Source: a virus
IMG/VR virus record: IMGVR_UViG_3300009537_000092
Coordinates: 1-32,665 of that record
Strand: one strand, 5' to 3'
DNA: 32,665 nucleotides
In this document: in pieces, positions 3,099-21,963 of the stretch
Layout of the letters: the number at the start of each line of letters is the position of its first letter
Numbering within the stretch: position 1 is the first letter of the stretch
Notes under the pieces: model-generated
What the model saw: only the letters and a program-made list of their open reading frames with translations
The model's database searches: none
Told to the model about the DNA's origin: nothing
Made by a program: the position numbers and the translations under genes

Positions 3099-3317
3099 TT
3101 AATAACTCCTTGATTCATTAATACGTCTGTTCATGTCACAATCATAATTTATTTCATTTTCTGTGCGTGAACGATTTTTCTTGAACGCGCGTTCTTGTGC
3201 ACGGTCAAGCTTGTGAAGAAATTTTATTTCTTCTTTTATTTCTTCATCGGTAAGACTAGACATCTTATTATCCATGTATATTTTCGTTTCATTATCAATA
3301 ATTTTAAATAGATCCAT
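3099..3317 (-). CDS. Small charged helical protein downstream of csrA
   Basis: The 72-residue product is highly charged and probably helical, with [21 protein letters not shown] in its centre and an Arg/Asn-rich C-terminus. The start is put at 3317, where AAGGAG lies 7 bases upstream; the ATG at 3323 is too close to the same site. The gene overlaps the end of csrA by 14 bases, so the two are translationally coupled. I do not recognise it. A partner or modulator of CsrA is a possibility based on coupling only. Confidence 0.6.
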
Positions 3318-3498
3318 GTTCATTCTCCTTTTTTAATTCAGCTTGAATGCGTTCATATATTTCAAGTCTATGAACGGCAATTTCTTTTGGGGCTTTAATT
3401 CCTGTTCTTATTTGGCCACATTGATATCCTAAGATGGTTACTTCTATATTGTCACCAATTTTAATAGTTTCACCAACCCGTCTAGATAATATCAGCAT
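3304..3498 (-). CDS. csrA: CsrA/RsmA-family RNA-binding translational regulator
   Basis: The 64-residue protein matches CsrA over its full length: [16 protein letters not shown] at the N-terminus, [16 protein letters not shown] in the middle, and IYERIQAE at the start of the C-terminal helix. The residues known to contact RNA are intact: Leu4 and Arg6 on strand 1 and Arg44 in the V-H-R motif on strand 5. CsrA homodimers bind GGA motifs in mRNA leaders and usually block ribosome access. The gene is first in a six-gene minus-strand operon with a ~100-nt leader whose own Shine-Dalgarno contains GGA, so autoregulation is possible. CsrA genes are usually chromosomal; mobile copies are known, for example on Legionella integrative elements. 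It may rewire host mRNAs or act on the GGA-rich phage leaders described below. Confidence 0.95.
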
Positions 3499-8380: not shown

Positions 8381-9088
8381 ATGAAGAATAGCTTTATATT
8401 ATATCATGATATTGTTCATATATTCGATAAACTGACAAATGAACAATCTGGCATTTTGATCAAAGCAATTCTAGATTATGAGGTTAGGGGAAAAATTCCA
8501 ACTTTAGACTTTGCTCTGGATTTAGCCATCACTCCAATCCTTCAATCATTGGACAGAAACAAGGCAAAACATGCTGAAGTTAGCAGAAGGCGCGCCCTTG
8601 CGGGCTCTCGTGGGGGGAAGCAAAAGGTAGCAAATCTAGCAAATGCTAGCAATTGCTACGAGAGTGATAGTGATAGTGATAGTGATAGTGATAGTGAATT
8701 AAAGAAAGATTTTTCTAAAGAAAAATCTTATGTCGAGCAAAAGCTCGACGGCGCCCAGCCTGTTAAAAAAAAGAACCCCAATAAAGAGATCAAAAAACAA
8801 GCATTAGAAGTTTTGGATTTTTTAAACAAAGTGACAGGACGAAACTTCCGGCCAGTGGATGCAAATTTAAAATTAATCGAAGCCAGATTGAGAAGTGGCG
8901 TTAAAGTCCACCAATGTCGAGCGATTATTGGCATTCAATACAATGAATGGAAAGATAGCGAAAAGATGTTTCAGTATTTACGACCTGCCACATTGTTTAA
9001 TAAAACCAAGTTTGAGCAATATTTCGCAAAATTGAACCCTAATTACGTACCACCGGAGGAGGAAAATGAAGATGAAAAAGACGTGTGA
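8381..9088 (+). CDS. Replication-initiator-like protein (DUF6291 N-terminus, Phg_2220_C C-terminus)
   Basis: The 235-residue protein has two domains. Residues 1-60 (SFILYHDIVHIFDKLTNEQ...AILDYEVRG) resemble the DUF6291 type. Residues 140-218 (LDFLNKVTGRNFRPV, ARLRSGVKV, YLRPATLFNKTKFEQYF) match the conserved phage C-terminal domain found in lambda-O-like and DnaD-like replication proteins. The linker, residues 83-115, is low in complexity and includes five Ser-Asp pairs. That linker DNA carries iteron-like repeats and two hairpins, as expected for an origin inside the initiator gene. AAGGAAG lies before the ATG. No helicase loader or helicase is in the window. The domain calls are recalled families; the initiator role is inferred. 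Confidence 0.7.
   Translation: MKNSFILYHDIVHIFDKLTNEQSGILIKAILDYEVRGKIPTLDFALDLAITPILQSLDRNKAKHAEVSRRRALAGSRGGKQKVANLANASNCYESDSDSDSDSDSELKKDFSKEKSYVEQKLDGAQPVKKKNPNKEIKKQALEVLDFLNKVTGRNFRPVDANLKLIEARLRSGVKVHQCRAIIGIQYNEWKDSEKMFQYLRPATLFNKTKFEQYFAKLNPNYVPPEEENEDEKDV
8628..8749 (+). other. Candidate replication origin inside the initiator gene
   Basis: Three near-identical 9-10 bp direct repeats, TAGCAAATC, TAGCAAATGC and TAGCAATTGC, fill 8628-8656. Five tandem AGTGAT hexamers plus a partial sixth follow at 8663-8697. A 10-bp perfect hairpin with a TAAA loop (8706-8729) comes next, then a 7-bp perfect hairpin, GTCGAGC/GCTCGAC with an AAAA loop (8732-8749). Position between the two initiator domains matches lambda ori in gene O. 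The hexamer array could also vary in copy number without breaking the frame. Confidence 0.5.
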
Positions 9089-13175: not shown

Positions 13176-14744
13176 ATGGCCGCAGCCGATGAAAAGATTA
13201 GTGCGTTATCTACGAGCGCCGCATTTGATGGAACAGAGCTTTTTGCATTAGTAGATGTATCAGGAGCGCCATATGTTACAAAGAAAAACACTACGACGGC
13301 TATGGGTACATTTGTCGTTGAAGTTCAAACGTTTTCTGGTCTATCGACTACTGATAAAACAATCCAAGGTGCGATCAATGAAGTTTATGCAAGCATAGTG
13401 ACTGAAAGTCTGTGGGATCGTAATGCGGGATCTGGGTTTTTATATCCTCAAACCGCTGGCGACGATTTAAATATGCTTGATGGCACTATTTTTTCAATTG
13501 ATCCTGCCATGCCAGTTACCAAAAAAAGTTATCAAATCTCACAAACTGTTACGGGTGTTGCCCCAGGGTTTGAAAATGCACGAATTGATTTGTATGGTTT
13601 ATATTCTGGTGGTGAACGTGTTGTATATAGTTATGCAGGTGCGTCTAATTCTCATAATTGGACGGGACAAGATTATACTTATGACAATAATACGGGAACT
13701 GTTTCACAGCATATTTATAAGACAGAACTTAATACTGTGGATGGTACAGGCATTATATTACAAGAATTTTTCGGCTTAAATGATGCTTCGCCCACCCCAG
13801 CAGATTATCAATATACACAAATTGGTCATATTATTAAGACTAATACCGAAGGTTCTGAGGATGCAGCAATGGCACTTTCAGTATCAGAAGCTGGTTCTAT
13901 GACTGAGTATATGCGTTTAGATGGTAAGAATATTAAAATAACTACTGCTAAGCCTGTAGATCTAGCAAATAATTCAATTGCTGTTACACAATCTGTTGCA
14001 GATAATTCGACAAAGGTTGCGACAACAGCCTATGTTCAAAATGAATTAAATGCAAATATTCCTGCTGCTCAAGAAGAAATATTAACGATTTCTGGGGATG
14101 GTCAAACTGCATTTACATTAGCGGGAACGCCAAATTCAGATGCTGATTTTACATTGTATCTAAATGGTCAACTTCGAACATTAACGGCAGATTACACGAG
14201 ATCTGGTACTTCATTGACATGGGGTGACCCAGGTGGTTTGACTTTAAAAACAACCGATGAATTAAAGGCTCGTTATAATGCAGTTTCATCAGGCATTGAA
14301 AGTCCGACTGAACTTAATTATGTTCAGGCCTATGATGATACATTACAGGCTATTTCGGTTGGGGCAACGCCGCAAGATGTTCTTTTCTCGACAAATGTAC
14401 AACTAAATGGATGGACGCATACCGCAGGAACAGCCAATTTTACTTGTAATGCGACAGGAAAATATTTAGTTACCTACGCGGTTTATTTTGAGAAAACAGC
14501 GGGCGCTCCATCTCAAATGGAAGCATGGGTTAATTTTAATGGCTCTCAAGTGAGTGATACACACGCTTCAGTTTCTACCATTACAAATAATGTTATTCAG
14601 GAAATGGGCGCGTCATCAATTATATCTGCAACGGTATCTCAGGTATTAAAAATTGAAATTCAGGCCCCCAATACATTCTTTCAATTAAATCAGCATACGT
14701 TACCGGAACCTACTGCAAGAATTACAATCGTGAGGATTAGCTAA
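13176..14744 (+). CDS. Tail fibre/adhesin with C-terminal C1q/TNF-like domain
   Basis: The 522-residue protein starts with an 'EKISALSTSAAFDGTELFALVD' adaptor-like segment. TIQGAINEVYASI follows at about residue 64. In the middle is TQSVADNSTKVATTAYVQNEL, a motif common in phage fibres. A short domain, FTLYLNGQLRTLTADYTRSG, comes after it. From about residue 390 the end looks like a C1q/TNF-type jelly roll (WTHTAGTANFTCNATGKYLVTYAVYF... to the C-terminus), a receptor-contact fold in many fibres. AGGAGAT precedes the start. It overlaps the next gene by TAATG. Trimerisation and host-surface binding are inferred from the family. Confidence 0.7.
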   Translation: MAAADEKISALSTSAAFDGTELFALVDVSGAPYVTKKNTTTAMGTFVVEVQTFSGLSTTDKTIQGAINEVYASIVTESLWDRNAGSGFLYPQTAGDDLNMLDGTIFSIDPAMPVTKKSYQISQTVTGVAPGFENARIDLYGLYSGGERVVYSYAGASNSHNWTGQDYTYDNNTGTVSQHIYKTELNTVDGTGIILQEFFGLNDASPTPADYQYTQIGHIIKTNTEGSEDAAMALSVSEAGSMTEYMRLDGKNIKITTAKPVDLANNSIAVTQSVADNSTKVATTAYVQNELNANIPAAQEEILTISGDGQTAFTLAGTPNSDADFTLYLNGQLRTLTADYTRSGTSLTWGDPGGLTLKTTDELKARYNAVSSGIESPTELNYVQAYDDTLQAISVGATPQDVLFSTNVQLNGWTHTAGTANFTCNATGKYLVTYAVYFEKTAGAPSQMEAWVNFNGSQVSDTHASVSTITNNVIQEMGASSIISATVSQVLKIEIQAPNTFFQLNQHTLPEPTARITIVRIS

Positions 14745-20080: not shown

Positions 20081-20908
20081 ATGAGTGATAATCTATCATT
20101 AGCAAATTTTGTAGAACCGAGTGAGACAGCTGCGCCTACTGAGGATGTAGCAACCCCCGAAGCAGAAAATCAAGAAGTGGTTGATAATCAAACAGCGGAG
20201 TCATCGCAAGAAACGCAAGAAACGCGTGAGCCAGAGTGGTGGTATGACGAGGGCGTTCCTGGTGTTGGCCCTAAACCTGAATGGCATGATAATAAAACAT
20301 TTGGCACATTGGCCGCACAAGCTCGAAATCAACGTGATCTTCGTAAGAAAATGGCTACGTTTGAGGGAGCTCCTGAAGGTTATGAAATAAACCTCAGCGA
20401 AGAATTAGCAGAATATGAAGTTAATCCCGATGATCCGATGATTAGAGGACTTCAGCAGTTTGCAAAAGAAAAGAACATGCCTCAGAAATATTTTGATGAG
20501 GCAGTTAATATGATTGCAAAAATGTCAATTGAAGCAGAGCAAGAAGAGAATGAAACCGTTCAAGAATATTTCAAAAACGAGGTTAAATCATTAGGAAGTG
20601 ATGGGAGCAAACAGGTATTAGATGTTTTAGATTTCTTAAAGAACACGTTTGAAGATTTTGACCCTGAAAAAGATCAAATGTTATTAAATAGCGCGCATGC
20701 CATTCGAAGATTTCAGGCGTTGCAAAAAAAATTAGCAACAAAAAATTTACCTGTATCGCCTACTTCGCCGTCAAAGCTTCCTATAAAATCCCAGTCTGAA
20801 TTAGATCAAATGTTAAACGATCCAAAATATTTGACTGATCCAGCCTACCGAAAAGATGTCGATGATTTATGGAAAGCTAAACTTGGTGAGAAAAAAATTA
20901 TTAGTTAA
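20081..20908 (+). CDS. Capsid assembly scaffolding protein
   Basis: The 275-residue product is acidic and mostly helical. Its N-terminal 50 residues are low in complexity and acidic. The phage-scaffold signature EWWYDEGVPGVGPKPEW is followed by ARNQRDLRKKMATFEGAPEGYEINL. Coiled helices (IEAEQEENETVQEYFKNEV) and a basic end, DVDDLWKAKLGEKKIIS, finish it. It lies between the portal and the major capsid protein as expected for gp9-type scaffolds, which guide capsid shell assembly and then leave. Confidence 0.85.
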   Translation: MSDNLSLANFVEPSETAAPTEDVATPEAENQEVVDNQTAESSQETQETREPEWWYDEGVPGVGPKPEWHDNKTFGTLAAQARNQRDLRKKMATFEGAPEGYEINLSEELAEYEVNPDDPMIRGLQQFAKEKNMPQKYFDEAVNMIAKMSIEAEQEENETVQEYFKNEVKSLGSDGSKQVLDVLDFLKNTFEDFDPEKDQMLLNSAHAIRRFQALQKKLATKNLPVSPTSPSKLPIKSQSELDQMLNDPKYLTDPAYRKDVDDLWKAKLGEKKIIS

Positions 20909-20954
20909 AAGTTGTTGCTATTTCAAACAAAAAGATTATTATTAATACATAATT

Positions 20955-21113
20955 CTGCTTAGTCTCAACTAAACAGTTTACCGAGAAATAATCTATTTCT
21001 TGCTTGAACGCCTTAGATTGAGTCACCGGAAAATTCGTGTGGAAACACATTGGTTTTTAGTGGGTGACTCAATATCGAGTAAACCCGCTAATAAAATATT
21101 AATTTATTAGTGG
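20955..21113 (+). promoter_or_regulatory. Multi-hairpin leader before the major capsid gene
   Basis: The 215-base gap holds four stems in series. H1: 20955-20963 with 20968-20976 (CTGCTTAGT, one C-A mismatch, CTCA loop). H2: 20982-20990 with 20994-21002 (one G-U). H3: an 11-bp perfect stem, ATTGAGTCACC (21017-21027) with 21063-21073, enclosing TGTG-GAAA-CACA. H4: 21085-21095 with 21103-21113, an 11-bp stem whose last bases are the GG of the capsid Shine-Dalgarno (GGAG at 21112-21115). TTTAC (20977-20981) can also pair with GTAAA (21079-21083), enclosing H2 and H3. GGA occurs at 21028, 21041 and 21112. Confidence 0.65.
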
Positions 21114-21123
21114 AGAATTTAAA

Positions 21124-21963
21124 ATGGCGGCGCCAAATCCTTTATCAAGTATTGCTATACAGCAATTTAATAGTAATGTTACAACCCTTTATCAATCTGC
21201 TGGTCATCTTTCAGGCACTACGCAAGAAGTTCACGGCATCATTGGTGACGCATACAAATGGCCTGTAGAAGGCAATGTTGATATGTCTCTGAGAGGAGGT
21301 TATGGAAGTATCATCCCTGAGTCAGAATTTGATCATAATTTTATTACTCAAACGTTTGATGACTACACGCTTTTGCTAGCCCTTGATCGTGGTGAGCAAA
21401 CTTTGACAAATGTTAATGAACGTATGCAATTTGCTAAAAAGCATACCAATTCGATGGGTCGACGAATGGATCAATGGAAAATTGATGCAATGGTAAATTC
21501 CGGTACAACTAATTTAGTTGCTGTTGGAACAACCAACTTAACTGAAGACAAGACTTTAGCAGCTGCCTATTATTTAAATGCGGCTAACTGTCCTATGAAT
21601 GATCGTTATCTCGCCATTCATGCAAGCCAATTACAATCAATGTTAAAGCAAACAAAGGTTGGCAGCATTGATTATGTAAATGTGAAAGGCTTAATTAATG
21701 GTGATCTTAAATATTACAATGGTTTCACAATTGTTGTGTTTGGTGATTCAACTGTTGGTGGATTACCAAAAACTGGTGATAACAGAACATGTATTGCTTG
21801 GCAAAAAGATGCTGTCGGTCTTGGTATGAAAGAAGATGGCACCGTTGATGTTTCTTGGTCAACAGAACGACGTAGTTGGATTTCAGTCGGTTCTATGATC
21901 GGTGGGGCAAAAGCAATTTTGCCAGATGGTATTGTTCTCATTACCTGTGACGAAACCAAGTAA
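21124..21963 (+). CDS. Major capsid protein
   Basis: The 279-residue protein has the pattern of podoviral major capsid proteins (HK97 fold). The N-terminus is IAIQQFNSNVTTLYQSAGHLSGTT; the middle has DDYTLLLALDRGEQTLTNVNERMQFAKKH. LAAAYYLNAANCPMNDRYLAIHASQL is the usual landmark near residue 150, and the end is AVGLGMKEDGTVDVSWSTERRSWISVGSMIGGAKAILPDGI. It follows the scaffold gene. Translation is set by GGAG 8 bases from ATG, partly buried in stem H4 of the leader. Confidence 0.92.
   Translation: MAAPNPLSSIAIQQFNSNVTTLYQSAGHLSGTTQEVHGIIGDAYKWPVEGNVDMSLRGGYGSIIPESEFDHNFITQTFDDYTLLLALDRGEQTLTNVNERMQFAKKHTNSMGRRMDQWKIDAMVNSGTTNLVAVGTTNLTEDKTLAAAYYLNAANCPMNDRYLAIHASQLQSMLKQTKVGSIDYVNVKGLINGDLKYYNGFTIVVFGDSTVGGLPKTGDNRTCIAWQKDAVGLGMKEDGTVDVSWSTERRSWISVGSMIGGAKAILPDGIVLITCDETK

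Follow-up and report, generated by a model that had tools for sequence, protein, structure and literature searches.

The window, a stretch of 32,665 nucleotides from an IMG/VR phage record, holds a gap of 215 nt (20909–21123) between a protease-like gene (weak PHROG_458 match), which stands where the relatives have their capsid-assembly gene, and the gene for the major capsid protein (MCP) on the plus strand (21124–21963, 279 aa; PHROG_3437, E 4.9e-35). What such a gap does in front of this gene is of interest: capsid protein makes up the bulk of what a lytic infection produces, yet the literature searched says little about RNA-level control of the MCP in tailed phages. A sequence-only reading of the window, which gave the length of the gap correctly, had placed a leader of four well-paired stems at 20955–21113 and proposed a new regulatory RNA for capsid synthesis.

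Folding of the region 20900–21140 (241 nt) yielded -61.9 kcal/mol against -41.4 ± 4.3 in shuffled versions (z -4.76, 0/200). The strongest local feature was the last stem, H4 (21085–21095 with 21103–21113; z -7.5 for a 37-nt segment), which is indeed 11 bp long and takes the GG of the capsid-gene Shine-Dalgarno (SD) sequence GGAG at 21112–21115. The stems H2 (20982–21002; MFE and centroid) and H3 (21017–21027 with 21063–21073; MFE) were also predicted, and a small hairpin GUGUG-GAAA-CACAU (21037–21050; MFE and centroid) was placed like the hairpin P3 of relatives described below. The remaining stem of the four, H1 (20955–20976), appeared only in some folds, and the TTTAC/GTAAA helix supposed to close H2 and H3 into a junction was absent from MFE and centroid and was seen in no relative. 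Rfam 15 gave no match to the window leader with the gathering score, or an E-value below 1–5, as the cut-off. A sigma70-like promoter (TTGCTA, 16 nt, TATTAT; 9/12 matches) at 20915–20942 would start transcription at ~20950; its match is weak alone, with 8 sites in the region versus 5.6 in shuffles. The leader is real and extends further than had been marked, from the promoter-like site to the start codon at 21124.

Single-protein scans for relatives with the capsid, tail tube B and portal proteins found nothing, and relatives were reached only through profile scans: a 7-member capsid profile returned 458 relatives, with 80 loci kept. Many of them had a gap of 75–350 nt before the MCP gene (by a rough ORF rule), in which a common motif was recognized: AAGGCnUA-YCGG..CCGR-C-CCUU, a small hairpin, UGGCU-nCGUAAn-AGCAAGC and GGCCC-nn..nn-GGCnnACC. 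It corresponds to a covarying RNA of ~98 nt with the hairpins P1–P4. RNAalifold on the first MAFFT alignment recovered just 3 pairs, because loop-length changes misalign the hairpins, and was superseded by a curated alignment. In the latter (A5, 36 sequences aligned by sequence) 24 pairs held in 91% of the cells, with 135 double-change cells compared to 42 in shuffles. The larger set A7 (101 sequences, 94 distinct), which is biased toward the structure because the alignment was made to the model, had the pairs in 94% and 411 double-change cells compared to 123 in shuffles; double changes occurred at 18 of the 24 pairs, and the signal was lost when the partners were slid. A search for pseudoknots by mutual information revealed no clear sign of long-range contacts beyond the hairpins. 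The sequence-only reading had proposed to look for covariation across homologous leaders and regarded its absence as a ground for rejection; that ground falls away, because the homologous leaders covary. No Rfam 15 model matched the family RNA, and the accessible passages of the open-access papers on phage MEP301 and on metagenome RNA motifs make no mention of such an element. The family is a new leader RNA of a known general kind, and probably a regulatory one.

The linkage of this RNA to the MCP gene was assessed with an unconditional pattern scan of viral contigs, which used the P3 sequence only and gave at least 120 stretches. Among the matches listed, the family RNA was held by all 118 of 118 viral loci as full-strength model hits, the MCP gene was found downstream in 113 of the 120 hits tested (the other seven leave the contig before any gene is visible), and in 111 of the 113 assessable copies the ATG lay 32–44 nt downstream of the RNA. 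The model hit 59 of the 70 loci searched from the first capsid set, and 20 of the 24 long records searched had a match, with exactly one copy in each. One contig, which has the usual copy at its MCP gene, gave a second, weaker leader-RNA match (32.9 bits) close to its end (L093:24-98, minus strand). Spread to cellular genomes was considered and rejected: they gave 61 pattern hits, of which a single one, L240, scored at full strength; it sits close to the end of a Flavobacteriaceae MAG contig of 6.9 kb, and the other hits look like chance.

The relatives' promoter, as read from column frequencies, consists of TTGCA at -35 to -31 and TAnAAT at ~-13 to -8 from the first base of the RNA. With the promoter at a fixed distance from P1, the MCP mRNA should begin with this RNA, and, as the conserved fold is found only before the shell-protein gene, it probably determines the timing or the amount of shell-protein synthesis. 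A role of the leader in capsid expression is likely. The proposal of a new regulatory RNA for capsid synthesis therefore fits well to homologous leaders which covary and precede the MCP gene wherever this could be checked, by a mechanism that we infer. On balance, we favor the explanation that the family represents widespread cis-acting leader RNAs at the MCP gene of a podovirus group, that the window has a structured 5' leader of the capsid mRNA as a derived member of it, and that in the clade of the window the leader acts as a translational switch; taken as a whole, this has slightly better than an even chance.

A position at the start of a transcript is shared with the put RNAs of HK022, which are structured RNAs opening a phage transcript; in contrast to them, the present family is MCP-linked and has a fixed distance to the start codon, and antitermination is hypothetical here. 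A put-like element would modify the host polymerase to read the long structural operon, which agrees with the location at the 5' end of such an operon and with phage MEP301 having no RNA polymerase of its own (PMC8024684). However, neither the fixed ATG spacing nor a coupling to the SD would be necessary for it, and we consider this possibility improbable.

Both P1 and P4 hold the same asymmetric 4x1 internal loop (strand a GG-CnnA-Y, strand b R-C-CC) in inverted orientation, the GG/CC being on the outer side in P1 and on the inner side in P4, and the unpaired-base elements GGCnnA, CCC, CGUAA and GCAAG are nearly invariant in the family. A strict module descriptor missed most of the true family members; a looser one, chosen after the strict one had failed, detected both modules in inverted orientation in 53 of 89 leaders versus 9 of 4428 background windows. 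A minimal form with the two inverted modules only was recognized by eye before the MCP gene of the cultured Vibrio phage CKB-S2 (L008:1386-1446), with GCGCAACGG-AUAA-UCA..UGA-C-CCGUUGCGC and GUCG-C-CC-GCAA-GG-AUAA-CGAC as the modules; the family model R2 scored this leader at only E 1.7. Such a two-module form is also readable by eye in L078/L085.

These modules bear on what kind of leader it may be. If the RNA were a stabilizer or a plain translation enhancer, P1 would shield the 5' end from 5'-dependent decay and the hairpins would prolong the life of the MCP mRNA without any sensing; an RNA that starts at the expected start site before a bulk product, with an ATG spacing that leaves room for the ribosome, would suit such a role, but conserved unpaired bases are not needed for it, yet they are nearly invariant, and the burial of the SD in the clade of the window is left unexplained, which makes it rather doubtful. 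An autogenous operator, to which the MCP, a scaffold or another phage protein would bind by the twin modules and feed back on MCP translation, has in its favor the linkage to the MCP only, where checkable, and two equal inverted modules, as would suit a dimeric protein. The binding protein is, however, only putative, and the P4 of the main family ends well upstream of the SD, so a direct steric block is not obvious; we regard this variant as unlikely. Going beyond the explanation favored above, the family may form a new class of sensing RNAs in a large group of aquatic phages, in which the twin modules would bind a protein or small molecule reporting the stage of infection or capsid assembly and set capsid synthesis accordingly, with the SD switch in one clade; this we put forward tentatively, as a possibility with the balance against it.

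The membership of the window in the family had to be judged without a model score: the models R1 and R2 did not match its leader (best plus-strand -1.4 and -1.2 bits), and the clade model R3, built without the window, gave no plus-strand hit there, while it did match the held-out L272 with 31.8 bits. The nearer leaders (L271-L278, L280-L286) were obtained via profiles of the window plus L012 and then of the clade, the nearest relative being L280 with 50% MCP identity. The window was aligned to L012, and by eye to L272 and L277, to place P1, P3 and P4, a hairpin set common to L012, L271, L272, L274, L277, L280 and L284. An initial assignment of H1 to P1 and of H2 to P3 gave way, on alignment with L012, to an alternative pairing of the H1 bases, 20953–20972 with 21013–21031, which is the one supported by the relatives. 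Its 5' strand, UUCUG-CUUA-GUCUCAACUAA (20953–20972), matches the P1 5' strand of L012/L271/L272/L277/L284 (UUCUG-CUA[AC]), its 3' strand is UUAGAUUGAGUC-AC-CGGAA (21013–21031; aligned to L012, with energies computed), and H2 would be an apical extension of P1 in the window genome, with no equivalent insert in the relatives. The P4 counterpart, GUGGG-UGA-CUC..GAG-UAAA-CCCGC, pairs 21060–21070 with 21077–21088; its inner CUC/GAG is common to L012, L272, L277 and L284, and the GUAAAC strand at 21079–21084, previously assigned to the junction, falls inside it.

The internal loops of the window, CUUA/AC in P1 and UAAA/UGA in P4, fit neither the strict nor the looser module descriptor, and those of the clade relatives (e.g., CUAC/CC, CUAA/AC, AUAA/C) would bridge them to the family modules. 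The P1 and P4 strands of the window in this order were found in 0 of 20000 shuffles, by a descriptor written after seeing the window. The position also fits the family, with the promoter-like site, weak as a match alone, followed by P1 at 20953 and the MCP gene at 21124. The window leader would therefore be a derived family member, its membership being inferred from where it lies and from the homology of its strands. In several other leaders of the clade (L275, L276, L278, L282, L283, L285) P1/P4 look rebuilt, and L278 has two hairpins closed by GAUG/CAUC.

With the P1 and P4 strands assigned from seven closer relatives, the stems folded from the window alone found an explanation: H3 is the 3' strand of P1 paired with the 5' strand of P4, and H4 is the 3' strand of P4 paired with the SD strand, so that P4 in the window is exclusive with both. 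Own-genome pairing was compared to swapped pairing in eight clade leaders, which are related sequences with strands anchored by hand: the permutation values were 0.0002 for P4, 0.002 for P4-3'/SD and 0.0105 for P1-3'/P4-5', against 0.76 and 0.77 for two control pairings, and an earlier version with six leaders and hand-cut strands pointed in the same direction. Of the eight clade leaders first examined, seven retained the SD-burying hairpin despite differing sequences, with the GG paired at ~1.0 and mostly more so than when the upstream sequence was shuffled. The idea that P4-SD or H3-type pairing characterizes the whole family was rejected: neither exceeded swaps in the main family (0.20 and 0.10, respectively), and the SD burial there was not beyond shuffles (0.75 versus 0.70).

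In the window, the H3+H4 fold (-55.2 kcal/mol) is better than P1+P4 (-47.4) by 7.8 kcal/mol, and the pairing of the four SD bases GGAG is predicted to drop from 1.0/0.99/0.75/0.90 in the free fold to 0.35/0.09/0.08/0.53 with P1+P4 enforced. The other clade leaders speak less for a switch: with P4 enforced, the SD of most of them opens only slightly, and the H3-type fold is by a wide margin the more stable one. The off-fold advantage is much larger in L274 and L277 than in the window, and the pairing of P4-3' with the SD is weak in L280 (-4.8). The better own-genome match of P4, the H3-type helix and P4-3'/SD fits a translational switch which would be off by default; judged by the folding models, it is well posed for the window and less so for the clade. 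As the H3/H4 fold is more stable, such a switch would need either P1 formed co-transcriptionally before H3 or a bound partner.

The mechanism that we envisage within the favored explanation is as follows. The family transcript would start at P1, the twin inverted internal-loop modules in P1/P4 would likely serve as the binding site for a putative partner, and the RNA, which ends 32–44 nt upstream of the start codon, would stay out of the way of the ribosome. The clade of the window would have it additionally wired to the ribosome site: with P1 and P4 open, P1-3' would pair with P4-5' (H3), and the freed P4-3' with the SD (H4). The SD would then be buried in the H3/H4 fold and more open whenever P1 and P4 are formed, either during RNA synthesis or on partner binding.

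One candidate partner had been suggested together with the leader, a phage CsrA, and the phage does encode this protein (3304–3498, minus strand, 64 aa; PF02599, E 6.8e-24). CsrA of the phage or the host would bind GGA in the P3 loop and at the SD, blocking MCP translation, and the three GGA triplets noted earlier are present at 21028–21030, 21041–21043 and 21112–21114, the last being part of the SD. However, no CsrA was found in the 32 other records searched, some of which are fragments, conserved ANGGA in the loops was not found, and the P3-loop GGA, as judged by eye, occurs just in the window and L280 among the eight clade leaders. A GGA in the SD is common and uninformative. Despite the gene, CsrA is a weak candidate, and we consider this route very unlikely.

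Among the known systems, translational riboswitches with SD/anti-SD exchange resemble the clade of the window in having helices that exclude one another, the SD being taken up by one of them; such an SD-sequestering helix is present in the window by prediction only, with weak opening in the relatives. In contrast to riboswitches, the receptor here is a pair of inverted internal-loop modules, the ligand is only hypothetical and the SD exchange is absent from the main family. The MS2 coat operator is an autogenous translational operator of a phage. Another such operator, the T4 gp32 leader (PMC3014915), likewise represents a cis RNA before the gene of a structural or abundant phage protein, while the RNA described here is a larger, multi-hairpin, covarying family whose binding protein is putative. 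Structured RNAs in phages of aquatic bacteria include the manA, wcaG and PhotoRC-II motifs in cyanophages (PMC2864571) and the glutamine riboswitch in the OM43 phage Melnitz (PMC9004378); in contrast to the present family, which has no Rfam match, they precede metabolic genes or ssrA.

A compact, single-copy, MCP-linked RNA is thus present in many phages, including the cultured Methylophilales phage MEP301 and, in a minimal form recognized by eye, the Vibrio phage CKB-S2, and its presence in cultured phages makes the question directly testable. A hit of the RNA can also serve as a genome marker for the capsid gene in unannotated contigs.

Several further observations were made along the way. 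A run of at least six T occurs within 120 nt upstream of the RNA in 47 of 85 leaders, often after a GC-rich hairpin, which suggests a terminator followed by the MCP promoter and, therefore, a separate MCP operon. In an AT-rich subgroup (MEP301 type; L121, L142, L161, L102 and others) the promoter spacer inversely repeats the first bases of the RNA, e.g. GCCTTATC..GGTAAGGC; such an inverted repeat with at least six matching bases was present in 24 of 83 leaders compared to ~6% in shuffles and could act as an operator on the DNA or, in read-through transcripts, offer an alternative pairing. Elsewhere in the window, 13176–14744 encodes a protein whose BclA C-terminal domain only just passes the cut-off (PF18573, 38.9 bits); its gene lies between those of the terminase small subunit and the portal. 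A protein of the replication-initiation type (Phg_2220_C + DUF6291) is encoded at 8381–9088.
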